Shown here one piece after another: positions 9,277-22,301 of a DNA stretch of 39,355 bases. Source of the DNA: Reinekea blandensis MED297 (lineage in GTDB: Bacteria; Pseudomonadota; Gammaproteobacteria; Pseudomonadales; Natronospirillaceae). A model generated the notes under the pieces. That model was not told the origin of the DNA, did no database searches, and was given only the letters and a program-made list of their open reading frames with translations. Position 1 is the first letter of the stretch, and the number at the start of each line of letters is the position of its first letter. The stretch is taken from assembly GCF_000153185.1 (NCBI RefSeq), contig NZ_CH724153.1, positions 344,628 through 383,982 of the forward strand, written 5' to 3'. A program made the position numbers and the translations under genes.

Positions 9277-10011
9277 TCAGGGCACGGCGATACCAATTTT
9301 TAAGTCACTGAACCAATCCAGAAACTGGTGAAATGCTTCGCGTGTGAACAACCGGCCGTGTTGAGGGGCCATGTAGTCAACATCCAGATCTCGTACCCGG
9401 GCGATCCAGTTTTGTTTCGCCCGTTCAGATGGCATCCAGCGCTGATGAAAGTATTTCATTTTGTCGATATGGGCGTCGAAATCCTCGACAAAGAGCGGAG
9501 CATCAACGGATTCAAGTGCCGCTCCCAGATCGCCGGAAAACAGAATTTTGGCCTTCGGATCATAAACATTGAAGTTCCCGGAGGAGTGCAGGTAGTGCGC
9601 CGGGATAAAATGCAGTTCGATGCCACCCAGCGATAAGGTATCCCCATCATCCGGTAGCGCTCGATAAGTTGTGTTTTGCATACCAAAGTGCCGGATAAAG
9701 CCTTCCCAGATCCATGGGCTGTGCAATGTCACATTGTCCAGTAGCTGATCCCACAGGCCCAGTGACGAAATGATGTCCGGGTCCTGGTGAGAGGCAAACA
9801 GATGTTCGATCTGATCCAGCGAAAAGTGCTTTACGATGCCAGCCAGCATGGGCGCAAACAGTTCTATGCCACCAGGATCGAGAAGGATCGCTTTCCCCTG
9901 ACTGATGATCGCGTACTGATTTGTATCGATAATGCGATCTTGTTTGGACGCGTCCCGACCGAACATGATCCATTGGTGGTCACCTTCACTGTAAAGCGTG
10001 TGGGATTTCAT
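9277..10011 (-). CDS. MBL-fold di-iron protein, ODP/flavodiiron-like oxygen sensor
   Basis: A 244-aa metallo-beta-lactamase-fold protein of the flavodiiron type but without a flavodoxin domain. The metal-ligand set is visible: His75-x-Asp77-x-Asp79 (SHQDPDI), His139 (PAHYLHSSGNF), Asp161 (FSGDLG) and His218 (APQHGR). HSSGNF is typical of the flavodiiron/ODP subgroup rather than of glyoxalase II or lactamases. In Treponema denticola the stand-alone relative ODP is a di-iron oxygen sensor for chemotaxis (established for that protein). Here the gene overlaps, by 4 bp, a chemoreceptor-like gene and is divergent from a che operon, so an oxygen-sensing role is inferred. A simple O2 or NO reductase role is the alternative, but no partner flavodoxin or rubredoxin gene is nearby. 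Confidence 0.85.
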   Translation of the reverse strand: MKSHTLYSEGDHQWIMFGRDASKQDRIIDTNQYAIISQGKAILLDPGGIELFAPMLAGIVKHFSLDQIEHLFASHQDPDIISSLGLWDQLLDNVTLHSPWIWEGFIRHFGMQNTTYRALPDDGDTLSLGGIELHFIPAHYLHSSGNFNVYDPKAKILFSGDLGAALESVDAPLFVEDFDAHIDKMKYFHQRWMPSERAKQNWIARVRDLDVDYMAPQHGRLFTREAFHQFLDWFSDLKIGIAVP

Positions 10012-10652
10012 AGCATTCTCCCGGACTGAAATGAGTACAGGCTGTGTTGCGCGGCCTCGATGAGTTCAATGACCACTTGCGTTGTTGACTCGATGTCTTT
10101 CGCCATGCTGTTTAACGTGCCTCGACTGGTGGTGACCCGGGTTGCTTCCAGTTTCGAGTTAACCGCGATGACGTTAATGACCTGGGTCTGTTGTTTCATC
10201 TCGTCCAGCATACTCTCCAACTTCTTCATCAAAGCATTGAACTCAACCTGCATGCTTTTTTCATCCTGTACAAAGGTCGAGCGCTTTTCGTCAATCAGCT
10301 GAGTGCGATCCCGCTGCATCGATTCCATGGCTTTTTTCAGATGTTGATCGACCAAGGCCAGTTGCCACTGGCGCACCGCCAGTCGGGCAATGTCTGCAGT
10401 CAGCTCTCCGATACGGTTGGCCAATCGTATTGTGCCCTTAGCAAGCTCATCGTAAAAAGAGGCCAGGACCGCTAATCCCGCAGCATCCTCACCGATTCGT
10501 ACAGCGACCACTGACAGGTTCTTTGACGACACCGACAGAGAACGGGCTTTAATCTGTGCCTGAAACAATGACCTTGCGATGGTCGTCGCTGCTAAGGTTT
10601 GGCGAGCCTGGTCAGACCGCAAGGGAGCATTCACATCCACATTTTGACTCAT
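10008..10652 (-). CDS. degenerate chemoreceptor-like protein (short MCP-type coiled coil)
   Basis: A 214-aa, almost wholly helical soluble protein. Residues of the C-terminal third (NVIAVNSKLEATRV, then SMAKDIESTTQ) align with the MCP signalling tip ([16 protein letters not shown], then [11 protein letters not shown]), but key tip positions differ: the usual [10 protein letters not shown] reads SKLEATRVTT. There is no membrane segment, HAMP or sensor domain. The stop overlaps the start of the ODP-like gene (ATGA, 10008-10011), so the two products are probably made in equal amounts and may bind each other, the di-iron protein serving as the sensor module. A candidate sigma-28 promoter precedes it. 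The start ATG lacks a strong Shine-Dalgarno. The alternative is a non-signalling decoy or scaffold in the array. Confidence 0.75.
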   Translation of the reverse strand: MSQNVDVNAPLRSDQARQTLAATTIARSLFQAQIKARSLSVSSKNLSVVAVRIGEDAAGLAVLASFYDELAKGTIRLANRIGELTADIARLAVRQWQLALVDQHLKKAMESMQRDRTQLIDEKRSTFVQDEKSMQVEFNALMKKLESMLDEMKQQTQVINVIAVNSKLEATRVTTSRGTLNSMAKDIESTTQVVIELIEAAQHSLYSFQSGRML

Positions 10653-10672
10653 ACTTTTGTATATACCGGTTT

Positions 10673-10699
10673 GTGTCGGCCGAACAACGATTAACTATA
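10673..10699 (-). promoter_or_regulatory. candidate sigma-28 (FliA) promoter of the degenerate-MCP/ODP operon
   Basis: Read on the minus strand: TATAGTTA (10692-10699), exactly 11 bp, then GCCGACAC (10673-10680). It matches the enterobacterial sigma-28 consensus TAAAGTTT-N11-GCCGATAA at 12 of 16 positions. The start codon is about 20 bp downstream. Confidence 0.35.
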
Positions 10700-10872
10700 G
10701 TGCAGTCGAAAGGCTTTGCTACTGCCGTGGGTTATGAAGTGGGAAGGCTGACTCGACAACCTGAACCTACCCGAAGTAAACAAAGTGGTCAGTGAAGTTT
10801 TCGAACTCTGTTCCTTATTGTCTGTGCGTTTTTATTACACTGGTCGAACATCACCGCTGGCGATCAACCCGA

Positions 10873-10899
10873 TTAAGTTCGCATGGCGATGGCCGATGA
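10873..10899 (+). promoter_or_regulatory. candidate sigma-28 (FliA) promoter of the che operon
   Basis: TTAAGTTC (10873-10880), exactly 11 bp, then GCCGATGA (10892-10899) matches TAAAGTTT-N11-GCCGATAA at 13 of 16 positions, including GCCGAT intact. Transcription would begin near 10907. An imperfect inverted repeat (arms 10874-10894 and 10911-10931, core GCGATGGCC/GGCCATCGC) overlaps it and could be an operator or a leader hairpin. Confidence 0.5.
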
Positions 10900-10981
10900 T
10901 ATTGGTGTAAGGCCATCGCTGGCGAAACTTAAGACTGCCGTCTAGCCTTTGCCATATTGAGGTGTTAAAGGTCCAGCAGAC

Positions 10982-12178
10982 GTGGCCATTGAGTTAAAAG
11001 AGGATTTAAATTTGGCTATAGGAATAGGGCAAAAACTACAATCTTGGGCGACGAGTCTTAGGACGTATTGGCCTACTGTATTCGTCGTACTATTGCTAAC
11101 TGTGCTGAGTCCCTGGCTGCCTGTTGTCATCTTACCTTTGTTAACCGGCTTGGGTGTCGGCACCTCTCTGTATTATCTAAAAGCAAAAAGTTCTCAGAGT
11201 TCTGAACTGATCATTGATAGTGAGGGCATAAACTCACTTGACTCACTCGAGCCTGCGCTCGAGAGGATGAATGAAGAGTTGATGGAACACCAATCCGTTC
11301 TTAACGAGCTCAATCAATCTCAGGAGTTGGAGATCGACCGTCTTGTCTCGTCATTCCAAACCATTCACCGTTTGTTAGATGAACAAAAGGGGCTGATCTA
11401 TCGAATACTGGAGTTTCAAGTCGATATTGGTGAAGGTCGAACGGATTCATTGCATACAAGCATGCAGACATTTGCCTTCCGTACATCCCAAACGATGGAT
11501 AAGTTTGTGACCGCAACCATAAAAAACAGTACAGAGATGATGGAATTGGTTGAAGTCGTTTCATCAATGGAAAGCAAAATGCCCACCATTGAGAAAGCGC
11601 TGGAAGACATTGACCAGATATCAGATCAAACTAATCTGTTGGCGTTAAACGCAGCCATTGAAGCCGCCCGTGCAGGGGAACATGGGCGTGGGTTCTCGGT
11701 TGTGGCTGATGAAGTGCGTGCGTTATCAAAACGCGCAGCTGAGTTTAGCGGCCTGATTCACAAAGAAATAAATTCGATCCGTTCCGATGTTTCCCAATTG
11801 CGTTCGCGCATCGGCAATGCCGCCTCAAGTGATATGAACTTTATTCTGAATGCCAAAGCCGATGTCGAAAAGGCCATCAATGCCTTGATGGAAAAAGCGA
11901 ACAACGATGAAAAGGCGACCGAAGATATTCAGCGCGTCGCAGAAGGTTTGACAGATGCCTCAAATGAAGCCGTTCAGGGATTGCAGTTTGGTGACATCAG
12001 TCGACAGACGCTGGAATACCAAAGCGAACGTCTAACATTGTTAATGAATGTACTTCCTGAACTAAAACCGGGTTTGGATGAACAAACCCTTAGTGAATGG
12101 ATACAGGAACTGGATGACTATCGGCACTCACCAGTGAAAGGGCAAAGCGATTCCGGTGGGGATGTGGATCTTTTTTAA
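10982..12178 (+). CDS. small membrane-anchored methyl-accepting chemotaxis-type protein
   Basis: 398 aa with two adjacent membrane segments (about residues 29-46 and 48-66), no periplasmic domain and no HAMP, then a coiled coil and an MCP signalling tip ([17 protein letters not shown], about residues 211-258). The C-terminal part has LQFGDISRQ, a motif common in MCP-like proteins that lack a normal sensor. By position it corresponds to the receptor-like gene that opens the P. aeruginosa che2 cluster (cttP), but the architecture differs. The start is ambiguous: GTG at 10982, or TTG at 11012, which has the much better Shine-Dalgarno AGAGGA 7 nt upstream. It is the first gene of the che operon, 13 bp before the STAS gene. 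The input may be cytoplasmic or via a partner. Confidence 0.88.
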
Positions 12179-12191
12179 AAGAGGATAAGGC

Positions 12192-12479
12192 ATGGCCAAA
12201 GGCGACATAGCTCTCAAGCTGCCAGAGCGGTTTGATTTTAATCATTATCAAACGTTCACGGATGACTATCAAAAAGCGTTAGGGAACGGCTCGGTAACCC
12301 GCTTGGTTCTCGACTTTTCGACGGTGGTTTATCTGGACAGCTCAGCGATTGGCATGATCAACATGATGTACAAAAAAGCAAAAGATGCAAACAAGACCGT
12401 CTGTATTCGGGGAGCTAAAGGCGTCGCGTACGATTTGTTAAAGCTCGCTAATATCCAGAAGCTGATTCCAATGGAGTAA
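12192..12479 (+). CDS. STAS-domain anti-sigma-factor antagonist (HsbA/SpoIIAA-like)
   Basis: 95 aa, a single STAS domain. The loop VVYLDSSAIGM carries the phosphorylatable serine (Ser50 of DSS by analogy with SpoIIAA/RsbV). In partner switching the unphosphorylated STAS protein binds and neutralises an anti-sigma factor or other target; a kinase turns it off and a PP2C phosphatase turns it on. Both activities are plausibly carried by the next gene, 4 bp away. In P. aeruginosa the comparable HsbA-HsbR pair controls FlgM and a diguanylate cyclase; here the downstream target is not visible. The Shine-Dalgarno is strong (GAGGATAAGG). Confidence 0.9.
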   Translation: MAKGDIALKLPERFDFNHYQTFTDDYQKALGNGSVTRLVLDFSTVVYLDSSAIGMINMMYKKAKDANKTVCIRGAKGVAYDLLKLANIQKLIPME

Positions 12480-12483
12480 GTTC

Positions 12484-14172
12484 ATGCTGAATCAGCAAAG
12501 TGTCGAGCACATGTTGATCATTGAGGATGATCCTTCGCTAAGCACGTCTATGTCAGAAGTGTTAGCAGAGATCGGTATAGTGATCGATCAGGCTCATAGT
12601 TGTCAGGACGCCTACCAGTTTCTGACAGACCGTCAATACGATCTGATTTTGCTTGATAATCAACTTGGCGATGGGGAAGGCATTGATGTCTTACGATGGT
12701 TTCATGATCAGCCTCATGAAACCGACCCCGCGATAATTATGATCAGCGAAAGTGACGAGCAACACTACGTAGAGGAATGCTACTCCTTAGGTATTGTGGA
12801 TTTTTTACGAAAACCCAAACCATTGCCATTGCTTTTGATCAAAGTACGGAAAATTCTGGAGAGTCATCGGCTCAAGCAAAAAGCAGTCGCCAACCAGATC
12901 TCCATGAACTTGATGTTGAGTCAGATGGACAATGAACAGCAAATGGCTCGTTTTATCTATCAACACCTTCATCAAAGCTTTCACGACGATATCGAAGGGC
13001 TGGAATCCTACATTCAGCCACACTCGTTGTTTTCGGGTGATATGGTGATGACCTGCATCGGTCCAAATGGTCATTGTTTTGGACTAATGGCGGATGCTAC
13101 CGGGCATGGTTTGGCCGCTGCTCTGACCATGATGCCGGTTTTGACCGTGATGCATACCATGGTGGTAAAAGGTTTTTCGTTAGGACTCATCGCTCGGGAA
13201 ATCAATCGAAAAGTGAACGAAGAATCCCCGGATGATCGATTTGTCGCCGCAATTTTGTTCGAAATGGACCCCCATCGGCGGACATTAGATGTTTGGAATG
13301 GCGGTATGCCGCCTGCTCTATGGGTTGATCCAGACAAGGGAATTGTGCAACGTTTTGCTTCTCGTCATCTGCCATTGGGCATTCTGGATAAGGATGCATT
13401 TGATGGCATGGTAGAAACCTTTTCCATTCCCAATACCGGGCACTTAGTTGCCTACAGTGATGGATTGGTTGAACAGAGAAACAGTATTGGCGAACCTCTG
13501 AGTCAACAAGAGCTTGAGCGGGTCGTTGAGCTGTCAACACCCGGTCAGCTTATTTATCACTGTCTTGAGCTTTTAACTCATCACACCGACGATGAAAATC
13601 TTGATGATGATGTCAGCTTGATGAGCTGGGTCCCAGAGGAGGCTATCGCAAGATTAGTCCGTGTACCCAACCAGACACAATACACTCCTGGGCATTCAAA
13701 ATGGCAATACTGCCTTAAAGGAAAAGCGTTGTCGGCCGATTCAATCATGGAGATGGCGAACAAGGTACTGCGCCGCTGGTTGGTGTCATTAGAAACTCAA
13801 CAGCGCGCCTACACTGTAATAGCGGAGCTTGTTAATAATGCATTTGATCATGGTTGTCTTGGTGTGTCCTCAAATTTGAAAATTGAGGACTTTGAGCTTT
13901 ATTTGAATGCTCGGCAGACTGCGATTGAAAACTTGTCTGATGATGATTGGATTCAAGTCTGTCTGTCGATGGTTGATAACCAGCTGAACATTGAAGTTAA
14001 AGACAGTGGCGATGGTTATTTTGGTAAAGAGTCAGCCATAAGCAAACTTAACGGTTTGTCTGGCCGTGGTATTGGGTTAATTCGGGCGTTGTCTTCTGAC
14101 TTCGTCGTAGATCCGCCGGGTAATGTCGCCCGGTCAACACTATCCTTAATAGGGCAGGATTCTAATGAGTAA
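12484..14172 (+). CDS. receiver-PP2C phosphatase-HATPase protein (HsbR/RsbU-RsbW-like)
   Basis: 562 aa in three modules. The receiver (about 9-120) has Asp15/Asp16, the phospho-acceptor Asp58 (LLDNQ) and Lys110 (RKPKP). The SpoIIE/PP2C phosphatase (about 185-390) has SGDMVM, LMADATGHGLAAAL, AYSDGLVEQ and DDDVSLMSW. A C-terminal RsbW-like HATPase (about 430-560) has ELVNNAFDHG, VKDSGDGYFG and SGRGIGLIRAL. The product can therefore in principle dephosphorylate and phosphorylate the adjacent STAS protein, with CheA-driven phosphorylation of Asp58 deciding which. That is the logic shown for P. aeruginosa HsbR. Its 3' end overlaps cheY by 8 bp, placing it firmly in the che operon. Confidence 0.93.
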   Translation: MLNQQSVEHMLIIEDDPSLSTSMSEVLAEIGIVIDQAHSCQDAYQFLTDRQYDLILLDNQLGDGEGIDVLRWFHDQPHETDPAIIMISESDEQHYVEECYSLGIVDFLRKPKPLPLLLIKVRKILESHRLKQKAVANQISMNLMLSQMDNEQQMARFIYQHLHQSFHDDIEGLESYIQPHSLFSGDMVMTCIGPNGHCFGLMADATGHGLAAALTMMPVLTVMHTMVVKGFSLGLIAREINRKVNEESPDDRFVAAILFEMDPHRRTLDVWNGGMPPALWVDPDKGIVQRFASRHLPLGILDKDAFDGMVETFSIPNTGHLVAYSDGLVEQRNSIGEPLSQQELERVVELSTPGQLIYHCLELLTHHTDDENLDDDVSLMSWVPEEAIARLVRVPNQTQYTPGHSKWQYCLKGKALSADSIMEMANKVLRRWLVSLETQQRAYTVIAELVNNAFDHGCLGVSSNLKIEDFELYLNARQTAIENLSDDDWIQVCLSMVDNQLNIEVKDSGDGYFGKESAISKLNGLSGRGIGLIRALSSDFVVDPPGNVARSTLSLIGQDSNE

Positions 14173-14530
14173 ACACTTTTTAATAGTCGATGATTCCGCT
14201 TCTATCCGGCAGATGGTCGAACACACTTTGAAAACGGCGGGCTATCAAGTTACCGCAGCAAAAGATGGCCAGGAGGCTTTGGATTTAAGTCAGCGTCAGT
14301 CATTTGATTGTGTGTTGACCGATCAGAACATGCCGCGCATGGATGGTCTGACGTTGATCAAATCATTACGCCAGTCTGCTAACTACAAGCGTACGCCTAT
14401 CTTGGTACTCACTACCGAGGCCAGTGATGACATGAAGTCCAAAGGTCGAGCTGCCGGCGCCACCGGTTGGATGGTGAAGCCCTTTGACCCACAAAAGTTA
14501 TTGGCTGTAGCGGCCAAAGTTGTGAAGTAG
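14165..14530 (+). CDS. cheY: chemotaxis response regulator CheY
   Basis: 121 aa stand-alone receiver. The acidic pocket is Asp9/Asp10, the phospho-acceptor Asp53 (VLTDQNMPRMDG), the switch residues Thr83/Thr84 and Lys105 (MVKPFD). It overlaps the preceding gene by 8 bp and lies 13 bp before cheA. In F7-type systems this CheY is usually a phosphate sink or a non-motor output rather than the main flagellar CheY; which applies here cannot be read from the sequence. Confidence 0.95.
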   Translation: MSKHFLIVDDSASIRQMVEHTLKTAGYQVTAAKDGQEALDLSQRQSFDCVLTDQNMPRMDGLTLIKSLRQSANYKRTPILVLTTEASDDMKSKGRAAGATGWMVKPFDPQKLLAVAAKVVK

Positions 14531-14543
14531 CGGAGCGCGAACC

Positions 14544-16499
14544 ATGAGTATGGATCTGGGGCAGTTTCATGAAGTCTTTTTTGAGGAAAGCCAGGAGCAT
14601 CTGGATGCACTCGAACAAGGACTGATGGCGCTCGATCCGAGTCAACCCGACGCAGAATTACTGAACACCATTTTTCGCGCGGCGCATTCGATTAAAGGCA
14701 GTAGTGGCGTCTTTGGATTTACTGCACTAGGTGATATCACGCATGTGATGGAAAACCGTCTGGATGAATGGCGTAAAGAAATCAGCCAACCCCAGGCGTC
14801 GCAAGTGGATCACCTGCTCACGGTGGTGGATGCGTTGCGTCATTTGGTCAGTGTTTACCAAAACGGAGAGCCGGTAGACGAGCAATGGGTACAAGATACC
14901 ATTGATGGCCTGAATGCGAAGTTTGATGCCTACGAAATAAAGAACAGTGAGCAAAGCCAATCGTCGGAACCGGTAGTAGACGAGGATGATGACGAAGGTT
15001 TTGGCTTTTTCGAACCCTTGGAAGCTGAAGCTGAAGCGGATGACGATGTAGGTTACGGCTTTTTTGAAGAGGAGCCAGCGCCCGACGAGGATGAAGGGTT
15101 CGGTTTCTTCGAGGAGCCGGAACCTGAAGCAGAGTTTGCTGCAGCGAATACCGAAGCTGAAGACGAAGGCTGGGGGTTATTTGAGGAACCCGGTTCTTCT
15201 GACACGTCGCCGCCCCAAGTCGATGCTGTAGAATCGAAACCGACTGAAACGAAGGCGCCTGCGAAATCAGCCGTATCAAATCCAACAACGGAGTCGGCAC
15301 AAGCCGCACAAAAATCCGGCGGTACCATCCGGGTGAATGTCGAAAAGGTCGACAGTTTGATTAATCTGGTGGGCGAGTTGGTCATCACACAATCGATGTT
15401 GGCGATGGTTGGGCAGAACCTGGATGATGCCAATCAGGAAAAGATGAACGGAGTCATTGAAACCCTGCATCGTAATACCCGGGAGATTCAGGAATCGGTC
15501 ATGTCGATCCGTATGCTGCCAATCTCTTTTGTGTTTAATCGCTTTCCAAGAGTCGCGCGCGATACGGCAGGAAAACTTGGTAAAAAGGTTAATCTGGTGA
15601 TTGAAGGCGGCGATACAGAGATTGATAAGGGCTTGGTTGAGCAGTTAGCCGATCCTCTGACTCACCTCATGCGCAACAGTATCGATCACGGGATTGAATC
15701 TCCGTCCGATCGGTTACAGGCAGGAAAACCAGAAACCGGAACCGTTCGTCTTTCGGCGCGTCAACAAGGTGGCAACATCATCATCAGTGTTATTGACGAT
15801 GGGGCCGGCCTGAACCGGGACAAAATTCTGAACAAAGCCCGCGAACGCGGTATGACCGTGAACGCTGATTCACCCGATGAAGCGATTTGGCCGTTAATTT
15901 TTGAACCTGGATTTTCCACCGCGGATGCCGTCACCGATGTTTCAGGTCGGGGCGTGGGCATGGATGTGGTGAAAAAGAACCTGAGTAATCTGGGCGGTCG
16001 CATCGATATTGATTCCGTCCCTGGTTACGGCACCACATTGTCGCTGATTTTGCCACTGACTCTGGCCATTCTTGATGGAATGGCGGTGTCGCTTGGATCT
16101 GAAACCTACATTATACCGCTCGGTAATATTGTCGAGTCCATTCAGCCAAATGCTGAGCAGGTAAAGACCCTCAATGGCGATGAACTGTTGAATGTGCGCG
16201 GCCATTATTGGCCGGTGGTTCGATTGCATCGCGTCATGTCGGTGCGGCCGCGTTTCGAACGCATCACAGACGGAATAGTGATATTGACTGAATCCGGTAA
16301 ACGTCGTTTCGGCATTCTCGTCGATGAACTGCTCGGACAGCAGCAGGTTGTCATTAAGAGCCTCGAACAACATTACAAGCGCATTCCCGGTGTTGGGGGC
16401 GCGACCGTTATGGGTGATGGACAAGTGGCCTTCATCCTTGATTTAGAATCCCTGGGCGCGGACGTCGCGGCCACGGCGACCCTGGAGGACGCTTCATGA
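14544..16499 (+). CDS. cheA: chemotaxis histidine kinase CheA (no P2 domain; acidic aromatic repeat linker)
   Basis: 651 aa. P1/HPt contains the phospho-acceptor His48 ([13 protein letters not shown]). P3 starts near residue 260 ([16 protein letters not shown]). The P4 ATPase shows [19 protein letters not shown] and [14 protein letters not shown]5, the CheW-like domain, runs from about 512 to the end. The expected P2 (CheY-binding) domain is absent. In its place, residues 145-220 are very acidic and hold four repeats of G-aromatic-G-(F/L)-F-E at 152-157, 170-175, 185-190 and 209-214, which could act as short CheY-docking motifs (inference). It overlaps cheW by 4 bp (ATGA), so the two are translationally coupled. 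Confidence 0.96.
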
Positions 16500-16981
16500 C
16501 CGATGAACATGACGTGGACAGTCAGCAGGAGTTTCTGACTTTCCTGTTGGGCGATGAACAATACGGTATTGACATCATGAGCGTGAAGGAAATTCGCGGT
16601 TACGACAACGTTACCCGCATTGCCAACGCGCCGGCCTTTATCAAAGGCGTTATTAACATGCGTGGTGAAATTGTCCCCATCGTCGATTTGCGAATCAAGT
16701 TTCAGCAGAAACAACCGACCTACGACGAGTTTACGATCGTGATCGTCGTTCAGGTACACGATCGCCTGGTCGGCATGGTTGTCGATGGCGTGTCCGATGT
16801 AGTGGGCTTTACGCCGGAAGAGATACGTCCGTCCCCCGATTTCGGGACAGCCTTTGACAGCCGGTATCTGTCGGGCCTTGGCTCCAAAGATAAAGATATG
16901 GTGATTCTGGTTAACATTGAAGCGTTGGTGACCAGTCAGGAACTCGGATTGATCGATCAAAACCGATCAACGTATTCATAA
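16496..16981 (+). CDS. cheW: chemotaxis coupling protein CheW
   Basis: 161 aa SH3-like adaptor linking receptors to CheA. The family features [38 protein letters not shown] and [10 protein letters not shown] are present. The start overlaps the cheA stop. There is a single CheW in this cluster, with 64 bp to the next gene, the PAS receptor. Confidence 0.95.
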
Positions 16982-17045
16982 ACGGTTTTATACAAGTCCC
17001 GGCCAGATCGGTTGGCAGAGACGGTGGTGTAATGATGGAGGGATC

Positions 17046-19697
17046 ATGAACCAACTTAATAATGCACTCAGTGCGCGCATCTTGATAGTCGGCACCGGGC
17101 CTGCCCTGTTGCTGGTGATTCTAAATCTGGCTCTTGCTGGCTCCGGGTCGGCAACGGTTCTGAACCTAATTGTACTGGCGGTTGCCGCAGGAGCATCATT
17201 GTGGCTAGCAAAAACTACCGTTAATGCCTTAGGTGAAAGCCCTGGGCAGTTGCGATCGTGGCTTCACCAACTCGTGAAGGGTGACACTGAGTTTGAACTA
17301 AGCCATATCCCTGTGTCCGGAAGTCTGGCCGAAGCGTTGTGTCAGGTTCGCGATCAGATGCGTGAGTCGGAAGAAAAGGCAAGGTTTAACTTCCGGATTC
17401 GTAAAGCAGTGGATACCACCTCTACGAACATCATGATTGCCGACGATGCCCGCAACATCGTTTATATGAATCAGTCGGTCACTGAAATGATGCAAAAATC
17501 CGAGAGCGATATTCGCCAGGATCTGCCGAACTTTTCAGCCCGGGAAATCCTCGGTGGCAGTATGGATCGCTTCCATAAAAACCCCGGTCATCAAATGGGC
17601 ATGCTTGATCGGTTGACCGACCTTTATGAAACCGAGATCGAAGTTGGCGGTTTGACCTTTCGGTTGCGCGCTACTCCGATCTTCGATGAAACCAACAATG
17701 AACGCCTGGGAACGGTAGTGGAATGGTATGACCGTTCTGAGGAAATCAAAGCGGAACAGCTCGCCCGCGAGAATGTTCGCATCCGGAAAGCGGTCGATAC
17801 AACGTCAACCAACATCATGATCGCGGATGATAAACGTAACATCGTCTATATGAATGAATCGGTCACCGAGATGATGCTGAAATCCGAAAATGACATTCGC
17901 CGTGATCTGCCCAACTTTTCGGCCAATGATATTCTTGGTGGTAGTATGGATCGGTTCCATAAAAATCCGAGCCATCAAATGGGCATGCTTGATCGGTTAA
18001 CCGATCTTTACGAAACCGAGATTGAAGTGGGCGGGTTAACCTTCCGCTTACGGGCAACACCGATTGTCGATGAAACCAATAATGAACGTTTGGGTACTGT
18101 CGTTGAATGGTATGACCGCTCTGAGGAGATTAAGGCTGAGCAACTGGCGCGTGAAAACGTTCGTATTCGTAAAGCGGTGGACACCACGTCGACGAATATC
18201 ATGATTGCGGATGCCGAACGTAATATCGTTTACATGAATCAATCCGTCACCGACATGATGCAAAATTCGGAGACGGATATTCGTCGGGATTTGCCGAACT
18301 TTTCGGCCAATAATATCCTCGGTGGCAGCATGGACCGGTTCCATAAAAACCCGAGCCATCAGATGTCGATGCTGGATCGGCTGACCAACATTCATGAGAC
18401 TGAAATTACCGTGGGTGGTCGTACCTTCAGTCTTCGAGCCACACCTATTTTCCTGGAAGAAGGCAGTCGGGAACGTCTTGGTACTGTGGTTGAATGGAAA
18501 GACCGTACCGATGAAGTGGCGACCGAACGCGAAGTCACCCAGTTGGTTGAAGGCGCTGTTAATGGCGACTTTAAACAGTCGATTGCTACGGAAGGTAAGC
18601 AGGGCTTTTTACTGACTCTGGCTGAAAACCTGAACACTTTGGTGTCGACAGCGGATCAATCCCTGAGCCGGGTGAGCGAAGCGCTGGAGCGGTTGTCCAA
18701 AGGCGACTTAACGGTACGGATCACTGAAGACTATGAGGGCGCCTTTGGTGATTTGCGCGATTACTGTAACCAGACGGCACAGAGCTTAGACAGTATGGTG
18801 ACGCAAGTCAGTGAGGCCGTTGTTGCTATTCGTACCGCGTCTGGGGAGATTGCACAGGGCAACTCAGATCTCAGTTCACGGACAGAACAGCAGGCGGCCA
18901 ATCTGGAAGAAACCGCGTCCAGTATGGAAGAATTATCCTCCACCGTGAAATCTAATTCCGATAACGCTCAGCAGGCTAACAGTTTGGCCGAGCGGGCCAC
19001 GGATGTTGCCGTGCGCGGAGGTGATTTGATCCGGGAAGTCGTGCAAACGATGGAAGCCATCAATGACTCGTCGCGGAAGATATCGGACATTATCGGCGTG
19101 ATAGACGGTATTGCCTTCCAGACGAATATTCTGGCGCTGAATGCTGCCGTCGAAGCGGCTAGGGCCGGTGAGCAGGGCCGAGGTTTTGCGGTGGTTGCGT
19201 CAGAAGTTCGCAGCTTAGCGCAGCGCTCTGCTAATGCGGCGAAGGACATCAAAGGGTTGATTTCCGATTCGGTCGATAAAATCGAAAGCGGTAATCAGTT
19301 GGTGAATCAGTCCGGGGAGACCATGGACGAAATCGTCGGTGCGATTAAACGCGTCAATGACATCATGGGTGAAATTGCAGCAGCATCAACGGAACAAACC
19401 AGTGGCATTCAGGAAGTCACGACTGCTGTCAATCAGATGGACGAAATGACTCAGCAAAATGCGGCCCTGGTTGAGGAAACCGCTGCGGCATCAGAAAACC
19501 TGCAATCTCAGGCTGAAACACTGGGACAAAACATCGATGTTTTCAAGTTGAGCGATACGTCTACCATCCATGCTGCGCAGGTAGGGGCCAAACCTCCAGT
19601 GAAGAGCGAAAGTGTGCCTCAACCAACCAAAAGCCGGGTGCCGCTGCCTCAGGCCGAAGCTGATGCCGATGATGACGATGAATGGGAATCCTTTTAA
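17046..19697 (+). CDS. Aer2-like chemoreceptor with three PAS domains, HAMP units and a CheR-binding tail
   Basis: 883 aa. Two membrane segments (about 11-31 and 37-56) are separated by a very short loop, so there is no periplasmic sensor. Three PAS repeats begin at residues 117, 245 and 373. Each has FHKNPxHQ and VVEW: His177/His305/His433 lie 50, 50 and 51 residues before Trp227/Trp355/Trp484. In P. aeruginosa Aer2 the heme ligand His234 and oxygen-stabilising Trp283 are 49 apart, so heme-based O2 sensing is a strong inference. HAMP-like segments (about 500-620) follow, then an MCP signalling domain with a canonical tip ([19 protein letters not shown]). The extreme C-terminus EWESF is a CheR-tethering pentapeptide, as in Aer2. 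The last ~30 residues form an acidic flexible linker. Confidence 0.95.
17394..18548 (+). repeat. three tandem 384-bp PAS-encoding repeats
   Basis: The repeat starts are 17394, 17778 and 18162, exactly 384 bp (128 codons) apart. Repeats 1 and 2 differ at about 9 of 128 amino acids, yet many third codon positions differ. Repeat 3 is more divergent in its last third and has one extra codon. Confidence 0.95.
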
Positions 19698-19742
19698 CGT
19701 TGACACCTTCGCAATAGAAAAGTCGAACGACAGAGGCGGTAA

Positions 19743-20579
19743 ATGAGCAAGCAGCCGACGCGAGATTTTCGTTACCAACAAGAGGATTTCGATGCCATTC
19801 GTACCCGTATTCATGAAGCGGCAGGTATCTGGTTGGCGGACAGTAAACAGCAAATGGTTTACAGCCGCATCGTTCGACGCCTGAGAGCCTTGGGACTGAC
19901 CCAGTTCAGTGATTATTTGAAGGTACTCGATAAGGAGCATGATGAACTCGAGTTGTTCATTAATGCGTTGACAACGAACCTGACGTCGTTCTTTCGCGAG
20001 AGTCATCATTTCGAGGCCTTGAAGACGTACATTCAACAGCACCACAGTACTAAAGCGCCGATACGGATTTGGTGTGCAGCTGCCAGTACTGGTGAGGAGC
20101 CTTATTCGATTGCTATTACGGCGATGTCGGCGACAGGCTCGTTGGTGCCGAATGTGTCGATCTTTGCCAGTGACATTAACAGTCAGGTTTTAGCGACAGC
20201 GCAACGTGGTGTGTATGCCGAAAGCCGTATAGAAGATCTGGACCTTGATATGAAACGGCGGTTTTTCTTGCGTGGCAAGGGTGATAAGGAAGGATTGGTG
20301 CGGGTGCGCCCTGAGTTGAAGCGGTTGATTGAGTTTCATCGGCTGAACCTCCTCGATCAACGTTGGCCGATCAAAGACGGGTTGGATGTGATCTTTTGTC
20401 GTAATGTCATGATCTACTTCAATAAGGAGACTCAGTCGACCGTGCTTAAACGCATGGTACCCATGCTAAAGCTCGGTGGATTGTATATCGCAGGTCATTC
20501 CGAATCGTTGGGGCGGGACATCCGAGGGTTGGAAAGCGCGGGTAAAACTGTTTACCGACGCATTGGAGGCGGAATATGA
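19743..20579 (+). CDS. cheR: chemoreceptor methyltransferase CheR
   Basis: 278 aa. It methylates glutamates on chemoreceptors using S-adenosylmethionine. The N-terminal helical domain carries TNLTSFFRE, and the SAM site has WCAAASTGEEPYS and FASDIN, followed by FCRNVMIYF. The upstream receptor ends in EWESF, so this CheR is expected to be a pentapeptide-tethered type, as CheR2 of P. aeruginosa is. It overlaps cheD by 4 bp (ATGA, 20576-20579). The start is ATG, with GAGGCGG just upstream. Confidence 0.96.
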   Translation: MSKQPTRDFRYQQEDFDAIRTRIHEAAGIWLADSKQQMVYSRIVRRLRALGLTQFSDYLKVLDKEHDELELFINALTTNLTSFFRESHHFEALKTYIQQHHSTKAPIRIWCAAASTGEEPYSIAITAMSATGSLVPNVSIFASDINSQVLATAQRGVYAESRIEDLDLDMKRRFFLRGKGDKEGLVRVRPELKRLIEFHRLNLLDQRWPIKDGLDVIFCRNVMIYFNKETQSTVLKRMVPMLKLGGLYIAGHSESLGRDIRGLESAGKTVYRRIGGGI

Positions 20580-21190
20580 GCAGTGAACACACCGCCGAAG
20601 TCGAACTGGCCCCGAACCGCTATTACGATCGGCATTTCAAACGTGAAGCCATCAAATTATTACCGGGAGAGTACTATATTGCCCGGCCCGGAAAACTGAT
20701 TGTGACCGTCTTAGGATCCTGTGTGGCCGCCTGTATCCGGGACCGGAACTTAGGTCTGGGAGGGATGAATCACTTTTTGTTACCGGCGGGTGACTCTTCG
20801 GGCGTGCAATGGACAGAGTCAGGGCGTTACGGTGCCTATGCCATGGAGTTGGTGATCAATCAGCTCATTAAAATGGGAGCGAACCGCGCGCACCTTGAAG
20901 CGAAGGTCTTTGGTGGTGCCAATGTGTTGTCCAGCATTACCCAACAAAGTGTGGGCCACAAAAACGCCGAGTTTGTGCTCAATTATCTTGAAGCAGAAAA
21001 CATTCCGGTCATTGCCAGCGATTTACTAACGCCTTATCCGCGCAAAGTTTATTTTTTTACGGAGAATGGTCAGGTGTTGGTTAAAAAACTGAAGAAACAA
21101 CACAACGATACTATTCGGGATCGGGAGGAACGTTATCTGCGACGTCTGGACACGGAACTTCCGCACGGGGATGTGGAGTTGTTCGAATGA
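20576..21190 (+). CDS. cheD: chemoreceptor glutamine deamidase CheD
   Basis: 204 aa. It deamidates receptor glutamines. The catalytic Cys49 is in TVLGSCVAAC and the His66 in GGMNHFLLP; VFGGANVL is also typical. It is coupled to cheR by overlap and precedes cheB by 61 bp. The C-terminal ~40 residues are highly charged (KKLKKQHNDTIRDREERYL), a basic extension common in proteobacterial CheD. Confidence 0.95.
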   Translation: MSSEHTAEVELAPNRYYDRHFKREAIKLLPGEYYIARPGKLIVTVLGSCVAACIRDRNLGLGGMNHFLLPAGDSSGVQWTESGRYGAYAMELVINQLIKMGANRAHLEAKVFGGANVLSSITQQSVGHKNAEFVLNYLEAENIPVIASDLLTPYPRKVYFFTENGQVLVKKLKKQHNDTIRDREERYLRRLDTELPHGDVELFE

Positions 21191-21251
21191 TCTTCGATCT
21201 TTTAAATAATCGACGGGTCTTAAAACCAAATTCACCTAGGGCTAGGCCGCT

Positions 21252-22301
21252 ATGATACGCGTGCTTATCGTCGACGACTCCGCCCTCATTCGTCAGGTGC
21301 TGACACAGGTAATTGATGCAGCCCCTGATATCCGTGTTATCGGAGCGGTGGGGGATGCCTACGCAGCTCGGGATTTTATTCGTAAACAACCTCCGGATGT
21401 GATTACCCTCGATATTGAAATGCCGAGGATGGATGGTTTGAGTTTTCTGCAGAAACTGATGAAAGCCCGACCCACGCCGGTCGTTATGGTCTCAACATTA
21501 ACCGAAGAAGGCGCCGATGCCACGATGCGCGCGTTAAGTCTCGGTGCGGTGGATTTTGTTGCTAAACCCAAGATCGACATCAAAGCCGGGCTCTCAGAAT
21601 ATCAGGCTATCATTCAAGACAAGATTCGTGCAGCGGCGATAAGTCGGCCTAAAGCTGCACTTCCTGATGCGACGGTGCCTCTTAAGTCGAACGCAAACAT
21701 TTTTGTGGGTACCGAACAGATTACTGCCATCGGCGCCTCCACCGGTGGGACAGAAGCCATTAAGGCACTTCTGCAACGACTTCCACCGAATGGCCCCGGC
21801 ACCGTAATCGCTCAGCATATGCCGGCGGGCTTTACGCAATCTTATGCGGCAAGGCTGAACCGGGAGTGCGCTATGACGGTTAAAGAAGCCGAGCATGATG
21901 AACGTATTCTGCCGGGTCACGCTTACCTGGCGCCGGGCAACTATCACTTGCGTGTCGTGCGCTACGGTGCCGATTACCGGGCAAGGCTGGATCAATCCCC
22001 GCCAGTAAGCCAACATCGGCCATCGGTGGATGTTCTGTTCGAGTCGGTCGCCGAAGCCTGTGGGGTGAATGCTGTCGGGGTGATTCTGACCGGTATGGGA
22101 AAAGACGGTGCCACAGGCTTGCTGAGTATGCGTCGGGCTGGTGCTTTGACGCTGGGGCAGGATGAAGCAAGTTGCGTGGTCTATGGCATGCCGGGCGCTG
22201 CTTGTGCTTTAGGCGCCGTATCAAGCACGCAAACCTTGCCGGAAATGGCTGAAACACTGCTCACGCACTGGGCAAAGCGTGGTGCTGGTAATCGCGTTTA
22301 G
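21252..22301 (+). CDS. cheB: chemotaxis response regulator / methylesterase CheB
   Basis: 349 aa, receiver plus methylesterase. The phospho-acceptor is Asp54 (TLDIEMPRMDG). The esterase triad is Ser163 (AIGASTGGTE), His189 (IAQHMPAGFT) and Asp285 (ILTGMGKDGATG). It removes receptor methyl groups and completes the adaptation set CheR-CheD-CheB. It is the last gene of the operon. About 200 bp follow before the first hairpin, with no close terminator. Confidence 0.96.
   Translation: MIRVLIVDDSALIRQVLTQVIDAAPDIRVIGAVGDAYAARDFIRKQPPDVITLDIEMPRMDGLSFLQKLMKARPTPVVMVSTLTEEGADATMRALSLGAVDFVAKPKIDIKAGLSEYQAIIQDKIRAAAISRPKAALPDATVPLKSNANIFVGTEQITAIGASTGGTEAIKALLQRLPPNGPGTVIAQHMPAGFTQSYAARLNRECAMTVKEAEHDERILPGHAYLAPGNYHLRVVRYGADYRARLDQSPPVSQHRPSVDVLFESVAEACGVNAVGVILTGMGKDGATGLLSMRRAGALTLGQDEASCVVYGMPGAACALGAVSSTQTLPEMAETLLTHWAKRGAGNRV

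Follow-up and report, generated by a model that had tools for sequence, protein, structure and literature searches.

A degenerate receptor coupled to ODP beside an F7 chemosensory operon of Reinekea blandensis: a probable accessory oxygen/iron input of F7 arrays

F7 chemosensory systems are widespread in Gammaproteobacteria, with evidence for a stress-response role of the ancestral form. As set out in the main text of Ortega et al. (2020, PMC7184735), the stage 1 operon runs antagonist, cheY, cheA, two cheW, aer2, cheR, cheD, cheB, mcpA, antagonist and serine phosphatase; in stage 2 the first antagonist and one cheW are lost and the last three genes have moved to the front. In Shewanella oneidensis, the che1 genes mcpA and aer2, six che genes, an anti-sigma antagonist gene and CrsR form one transcription unit, and the CrsR/CrsA partner switch controls RpoS, a role of Che1 in this switch being worded as “could be” (Fortier et al. 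2022, PMC9855816); the CrsR/CrsA mechanism and its relation to HsbR/HsbA are treated in PMC6482189. The di-iron protein ODP is known from Treponema denticola, where ODP (TDE2498) and the soluble receptor TDE2496 work together with the one CheA of the system (PMC7666581). ODPs also occur in operons with genes of methyl-accepting chemotaxis proteins (MCP) in two orders, and with other signaling genes (Muok et al. 2019, as described in PMC7319448). Here we analyze a 39,355-nucleotide stretch of the Reinekea blandensis MED297 genome (contig NZ_CH724153.1; “the window”), in which an ODP gene and a gene for a degenerate receptor (dMCP) lie next to an F7 operon. Because the same pair is built into F7 operons of other bacteria, it probably provides the F7 system with an additional oxygen input. 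The reading that we favor, with some confidence yet well short of certainty, is that ODP-dMCP serves F7 arrays as an accessory input for oxygen/iron, and that an RpoS partner switch is among the outputs of these arrays.

The window operon consists of ten consecutive plus-strand genes (positions 10982–22301): mcpA-like, STAS, REC-PP2C-HATPase, cheY, cheA, cheW, aer2, cheR, cheD and cheB (Table 1). This is the stage 2 F7 order (mcpA, antagonist, phosphatase, cheY, cheA, one cheW, aer2, cheR, cheD, cheB), judged by a gene-order criterion derived from the text of PMC7184735, and the Aer2 C-terminus, EWESF, satisfies the stage 2 Aer2 ending x-[HFYW]-x2-[HFYW]. Common to both are the whole operon order, the McpA-like receptor and an Aer2-like receptor with a CheR-tether-type C-terminus; the main text of that paper, where searched, does not name ODP. 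S. oneidensis Che1 shares the gene content of the operon (mcpA, aer2, six che genes, antagonist, CrsR), but its Aer2 has two PAS domains versus three here, and the ODP-dMCP pair beside the operon is a feature of the window. The plus-strand operon was therefore rejected as a new system, stage 1/2 F7 and S. oneidensis Che1 having been described already. A first-pass annotation, made from the DNA alone, knew of no described system that combines all parts. F7 with Aer2, STAS and PP2C is in fact published (PMC7184735, PMC9855816), whereas no description of ODP together with F7/Aer2 was found among the literature matches listed. The pair with F7 thus appears to be what is new here, although it may have been noticed earlier in the 2019 ODP paper. 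The gene calls of that annotation on both strands were borne out by Pfam and solved-structure matches; STAS and receiver-PP2C-HATPase genes do stand ahead of the che set as it claimed, but it overlooked the first gene of the operon, mcpA-like, whose product is 52–53% identical to that of the same-position gene in loci L209 and L210.

The ODP gene product scores 245.7 bits against Pfam PF19583 (cut-off 27.2) and matches the solved ODPs 6qrq (E 4e-60) and 6qnm (E 1.7e-56). H75, D77, D79, H139, D161 and H218, the presumed metal ligands, are invariant in 12 aligned ODPs, so that the protein has both the fold of the family and the His/Asp residues common to solved ODPs. Because of this family membership and these conserved residues, it would be expected to sense O2/iron at a di-iron site. 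The 3′ end of the dMCP gene overlaps the ODP gene by 4 bases; the earlier description of a degenerate receptor overlapping a di-iron ODP-like protein agrees with the PF19583, 6qrq/6qnm and dMCP profile matches.

ODP and dMCP form a near-constant couple. An ODP-family match at E <= 0.001 is present in 24 of the 57 genomes of the window’s order, and it exceeds 200 bits in 16; nine of these 16, the window included, carry the closer ODP class (at least 59% identity), with dMCP directly upstream in 9/9, and the other seven (34–42% identity) have no dMCP in the fetched stretches. At class level (369 genomes), the 20 best ODPs (at least 361 bits) and the 20 strong dMCPs (E < 1e-20, a threshold of our own) come from an identical set of 20 genomes, in which they are neighbors by coordinates. 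In three further genomes (G130, G257, G411), ODP is immediately adjoined by a weaker dMCP-like match (45 to 34 bits), and Aer2 is not matched. Among the 567 ODP loci confirmed by scan, the best 80 are the named loci; an upstream dMCP open reading frame is present in 78 of these, and the remaining two lie at contig ends. These upstream frames were picked by position and length, their homology being judged from sequences and alignment, and the window dMCP as query at 1e-5 finds only 38 of the 80. In the order of genome G303 (121 genomes), presumably Methylococcales as judged by GTDB taxonomy and the Aer2 layout, dMCP is present in 36 genomes and adjoined by ODP in 30/30 loci returned. Across the order and named-locus sets, ODP is conserved (59–75% identity to the window) and dMCP evolves fast (16–51%). 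The T. denticola pair TDE2498/TDE2496 likewise couples ODP genetically to a receptor without membrane and sensing parts, although in an F2 system with one CheA, unlike the F7 of the window; the ODP-MCP operons of Muok et al. (2019, via PMC7319448) have in common with the window that ODP genes are joined with MCP genes.

Within the G303 order, eight genera, Cycloclasticus included, have the pair within an F7 operon or immediately 3′ of one. In G303 itself (L206), a single strand carries cheY, cheA, cheW, aer2, cheW, STAS-like, cheR, cheD, cheB, mcpA, STAS, a HATPase-like protein gene, dMCP and ODP, the protein encoded 5′ of dMCP lacking PP2C and matching HATPase only below cut-off. Cycloclasticus L140 has CrsR-like and STAS genes on one strand and dMCP, ODP, STAS-like, cheY, cheA, cheW, parA-like (by eye), aer2, cheR, cheD and cheB on the other; L126, a Bathymodiolus symbiont record of Cycloclasticus, shows the same gene frame. 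The L126 cheA frame (11640–12818) is interrupted by a stop codon that follows residue 392; either the gene is broken or the assembly is in error. An Aer2 match is present in 34 of 35 dMCP genomes of the G303 order (35 of the 36 were searched; G485, with a half-length dMCP match, was left out), and it lies within 10 kb of dMCP in 14/35, from five genera, compared with 0.47 expected under random placement ignoring kinship. In all ten stretches fetched from this order, three of which lie outside the 14, F7 genes lead into dMCP-ODP or surround it; as seven were chosen because already coordinate-linked and three for a che gene or receiver 5′ of dMCP, 10/10 is not a rate. The pair is collinear behind cheB or mcpA-STAS-CrsR in L206, L249, L250, L252–L254 and L256–L258, and in L250 dMCP and ODP come after a cheY-to-phosphatase run of stage 1 genes. 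F7 linkage extends to 8 of the 12 dMCP-bearing genera of this order (g302, g253, g321, g319, g331, g339, g323, g346). In G394, an F7 set and the pair share one strand, ~12 kb apart.

That the pair and F7/Aer2 systems go together beyond chance is supported across the class as well. For strict pairs, an Aer2 PAS-HAMP match occurs in 19/20 pair-bearing versus 72/349 other genomes (Fisher 9.6e-12), and with the three weaker pairs included in 19/23 versus 72/346 (Fisher 2.2e-9). Restriction to genomes with MCP-like matches leaves Fisher values of 8.3e-7 (strict) and 9.2e-5 (with weaker pairs). Counted by family, the figures are 13/14 versus 40/168 (strict) and 14/16 versus 39/166 (with weaker pairs), the total of 182 families being taken from the family numbers in the search results rather than from a full list. 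In the window’s order, Aer2 is matched in 8/9 pair-bearing versus 11/48 other genomes (3.3e-4), at a whole-protein threshold of E <= 1e-100 at which a few matches cover mainly the signaling domain. ODP without dMCP is accompanied by Aer2 in 18/50 genomes, more often than Aer2 is matched where ODP is absent (54/296). An equal tie of any ODP to Aer2 was rejected, 18/50 without dMCP standing against 19/20 or 19/23 with it.

Several observations weigh against an F7 input. In the window, the pair and the operon are on opposite strands. In the eight other pair-bearing genomes of its order (seven 20-kb stretches and one 7.6-kb contig), the pair lies beside F7 in none; conserved adjacency within that order was therefore rejected, and the window arrangement is local. 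A cheA-to-cheB F7 set occurs within the fetched flanks in only 2/80 named ODP loci, and 18/35 G303-order genomes show no F7 link in surroundings that were partly read. Rare co-occurrence of the two divergent operons in related genomes had been named beforehand as a refutation, and the outcome is divided: they are neighbors in none of the eight other pair-bearing genomes of the order, but the pair and an Aer2 receptor are found in the same genomes and, in other bacteria, in a single run of genes. The strands and the local adjacency would also suit an ordinary stage-2 F7 operon beside an unrelated ODP operon, with functional coupling nowhere, which we regard as highly improbable in view of the operon-level linkage in the G303 order, the Aer2 matches close to dMCP there and the co-occurrence with Aer2.

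Further observations on the same side concern the target array. No Aer2 match was found in pair-bearing G176, G030 and G538, nor with the weaker pairs of G130, G257 and G411, G538 nevertheless having F7 genes beside the pair. An Aer2 match alone does not prove a whole F7 set, and 13 places in the window genome encode CheW domains, which makes several arrays possible targets. ODP-dMCP could accordingly be a general aerotaxis module for the flagellar chemotaxis array, as in T. denticola, its place beside F7 being accidental. Many pairs are indeed unlinked to F7, 4/23 pair-bearing class genomes lack an Aer2 match, and T. denticola ODP and TDE2496 work with a single CheA (PMC7666581); the three weaker pairs without an Aer2 match make the accessory F7 input less and this alternative more likely. 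Still, we consider it unlikely, although a serious contender, as the pair is embedded in F7 operons in eight genera of one order and its Aer2 co-occurrence exceeds that of MCP-bearing genomes generally.

How ODP could reach an F7 array is suggested by dMCP. The window protein has no Pfam match above cut-off and does not reach the MCPsignal gathering score; L140 dMCP likewise has no MCPsignal match, and the L206 homolog scores 20.8 of 34.6 bits. A 59-member profile (58 of the 78 named dMCP open reading frames plus the window protein) nevertheless matches solved chemoreceptors (3g6b, E 4e-10; 2ch7, 1.6e-8; 1qu7, 2.9e-5), with the first of two tip-like segments (residues ~37–70 and 160–187) lying over the receptor tip. 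Its best PDB match is the soluble receptor of Thermotoga maritima (3g67/3g6b, 213 residues), whose tip region matches tip 1; a weak second match (4.6 bits, chain residues 25–59) falls outside the tip region. Each half of dMCP alone aligns tip-to-tip with window Aer2 and McpA, and the halves do so with each other (scores 30.6–37.2). None of these five scores is reached in 100 column shuffles; as such shuffles also destroy helical periodicity, three kinds of control were added, namely tips in reverse, helices adjacent to the tip, and the dimer helix of CheA, and these score only 7.4–15.8. Among 79 sequences, the residues equivalent to Tsr N381, R388 and G390 are kept at tip 1 in 78, 72 and 79, respectively, and the E385 position there is hydrophobic in all 78 listed, with E not among the listed residues; tip 2 keeps E385 in 74, but N381 only in 8 and R388 in 19 (Tsr numbering). 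dMCP is thus a profile-level homolog of receptor tips, with two tip sequences in one chain that carry complementary conserved residues.

AlphaFold2 models of two dMCP members are helical and confident (pLDDT 89.5 and 89.8, pTM 0.81 and 0.79), and helices are predicted in the window protein at residues 10–111, 118–170 and 177–213. If the chain turns at tip 1, four helices of 44, 54, 53 and 37 residues result. These lengths would suit a bundle of four helices that mimics a receptor dimer in one chain, with the two tips at the same end. Two structural results speak against it. DSSP places no break at tip 1, so that a hairpin is not demonstrated there, and Foldseek returned weak matches, none with E <= 0.001 in either search. 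The first search listed a designed six-helix barrel, then seven designed maquette-type chains and chemoreceptors at ranks 9 and 10; in the second, eight maquette-type chains rank first. Maquettes are four-helix bundles.

It is also conceivable that the pair works off the array; dMCP would then bind ODP and regulate the CrsR-like protein or the methylation enzymes, with its receptor-like helices as interface only. PP2C (CrsR-like) genes stand directly 5′ of dMCP in L163 (a metagenome-assembled Methylococcales genome, where dMCP-ODP follows), L221 and L222, and part of the canonical contact residues is lost from the dMCP tips. Such a role appears improbable to us, as residues are kept at receptor tip positions (N and R of tip 1, E of tip 2, as counted above) and the 5′ neighbor in L249, L252, L256, L257 and L258 is cheB, not CrsR.

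The second oxygen-related component is Aer2, annotated in the first pass as an F7-type receptor with three PAS domains and the Aer2 heme-pocket residues. This holds: each PAS has an FHKNPxHQ histidine (H177, H305, H433) and a tryptophan (W227, W355, W484), and the third aligns to the solved Pseudomonas aeruginosa Aer2 PAS (3vol/4hi4). These residues probably correspond to the conserved heme/O2 residues of characterized Aer2 proteins. With HAMP and MCP domains also present, the protein has the features of a heme-PAS receptor, although the NCBIfam scan of Aer2 gave a sub-cut-off match only (659 of 1200 bits). Missing from the earlier architecture, right as to three PAS domains, were hydrophobic N-terminal segments (residues ~7–52, by hydropathy only). 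The PAS domains are three 300-nucleotide direct repeats at 384-nucleotide spacing with 75–81% nucleotide identity to the first (17394–18461), which suggests a rather recent tandem expansion. Conserved PAS histidine and tryptophan serve heme and O2 (PMC9855816, PMC13401364), Vibrio vulnificus Aer2 has three heme-binding PAS domains (PMC13401364), and membrane-bound Aer2 in Leptospira is the subject of a paper cited in PMC13401364. The Cycloclasticus Aer2 (L140, 15231–18188) has an N-terminal globin domain (46 bits, cut-off 22) ahead of its three PAS domains, which would be a third oxygen chemistry.

On the output side, the REC-PP2C-HATPase protein keeps D58 and K110 in its receiver, DATGHG in PP2C, and ELVNNAFDH and DSGDG in HATPase; together with the STAS protein, which has a candidate phosphorylatable serine (DSS), it makes up a gene set of the CrsR-CrsA type. 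We take these motifs to have their usual roles. An rpoS gene is present in the window genome (469 bits, cut-off 378.7). The first-pass annotation had named HsbA/HsbR as relatives; CrsA/CrsR are closer in a tree-free comparison, because the F7, Aer2, STAS and PP2C context matches S. oneidensis Che1. By this analogy, we infer that the output of the F7 operon includes an RpoS partner switch. One genus holds three F7 layouts (L214/G003, L211/G005 and the window): stage 2 with CrsR, mcpA-STAS-cheY in a cluster where CrsR is not matched, and a stage-1-like form, which hints at replacement by horizontal transfer.

Two short motifs recur in the F7 proteins. Window CheA has four GFGFF-type motifs in an acidic linker (residues 152–213, ~14990–15185); together with the CheAs of three clusters of like gene order (L209, L210, L214), it belongs to a set with 2–4 copies of GFGFF, GYGFF, GFGLF or GWGLF each, and there are none in nine other CheAs (one partly read), which have a domain-like stretch there instead, by eye. 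The repeated motif could be a docking motif. McpA and CheD of F7 clusters end in a common peptide, ~[GS][DESH][IV][DE]LF, in all 19 CheD and 10 McpA C-termini read (window, L206, L140, L126, L209–L215, L249–L254, L256–L258), the window copies being GGDVDLF (McpA, 12145–12178) and HGDVELFE (CheD, 21160–21190). The McpA C-terminus is described as conserved and of unclear role (Ortega et al., PMC7184735); its sharing with CheD suggests one common docking partner. A GGDEF-type gene (by eye) just 5′ of the L206 F7 cluster (920–1936) has DDIELF at its C-terminus, which resembles the ends of the L206 CheD and McpA.

Table 1 Genes of the ODP-dMCP pair and the F7 operon, in window positions
Feature	Position	Strand	Remarks
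Window	C3:344628-383982		Part of a 4.53-Mb genome
ODP	9277..10011	-	244 aa; metallo-beta-lactamase-fold di-iron protein family; oxygen/iron binding predicted
dMCP (degenerate receptor)	10008..10652	-	214 aa; no hydrophobic segment; two receptor-tip-like segments
McpA-like receptor	10982..12178	+	First F7-operon gene; one predicted membrane segment; PF00015 97 bits
STAS anti-sigma-factor antagonist (CrsA-like)	12192..12479	+	PF01740 46.8 bits; DSS at residues 49-51
CrsR-like REC-SpoIIE/PP2C-HATPase partner-switch protein	12484..14172	+	PF00072, PF07228 and PF13581 above cut-off
CheY	14165..14530	+	PF00072 104.6 bits
CheA	14544..16499	+	Hpt, H-kinase_dim, HATPase_c and CheW domains; four GFGFF-type motifs; acidic linker
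CheW	16496..16981	+	PF01584 130.8 bits (G000:C3:361156-361566)
Aer2	17046..19697	+	N-terminal hydrophobic segments; three heme-type PAS repeats (predicted); HAMP; MCP signaling domain; C-terminal EWESF
CheR	19743..20579	+	PF01739 192.4 bits
CheD	20576..21190	+	PF03975 104.3 bits
CheB	21252..22301	+	PRK00742 439 bits, cut-off 293

Upstream of mcpA, a sigma-28-like sequence (10873–10899, plus strand) has three mismatches, with 0.29 such sites expected by chance, and GC content falls to 0.45 around 11–14 kb of the window; both are weak and were given no weight. Sigma-70 and terminator scans of the window yielded results no better than shuffles.

Turning to mechanism, we propose that ODP would bind O2 and sense iron at its di-iron site and thereby change its grip on dMCP, a step suggested by the gene coupling and by the T. 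denticola pair (PMC7666581, PMC6978683). Receptor homology and operon linkage suggest that dMCP, taking the place of a receptor dimer tip with one chain, would then dock in the CheA/CheW layer and alter the activity of the F7 CheA, with the heme-PAS Aer2 providing a second O2 signal. CheA would pass phosphate to CheY and to the CrsR-like receiver; the phosphatase of the CrsR-like protein may then act on the STAS protein so that RpoS is freed, by analogy with S. oneidensis CrsR/CrsA. In its full form, the proposal is that dMCP, as a mimic of the dimer tip in ~200 residues (N/R versus E contacts), lets ODP plug O2/iron into heme-reading F7 arrays, one CheA weighing two oxygen chemistries and setting the RpoS switch; we advance it tentatively, giving it somewhat less than an even chance.

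If true, the coupled second oxygen sensor would show what F7 arrays weigh, and a receptor fragment with two tips in one chain would link a detached sensor to a chemoreceptor array by a new route. Harmless bacteria of the methanotroph-type order, where the genes are linked in operons, make the proposal testable.

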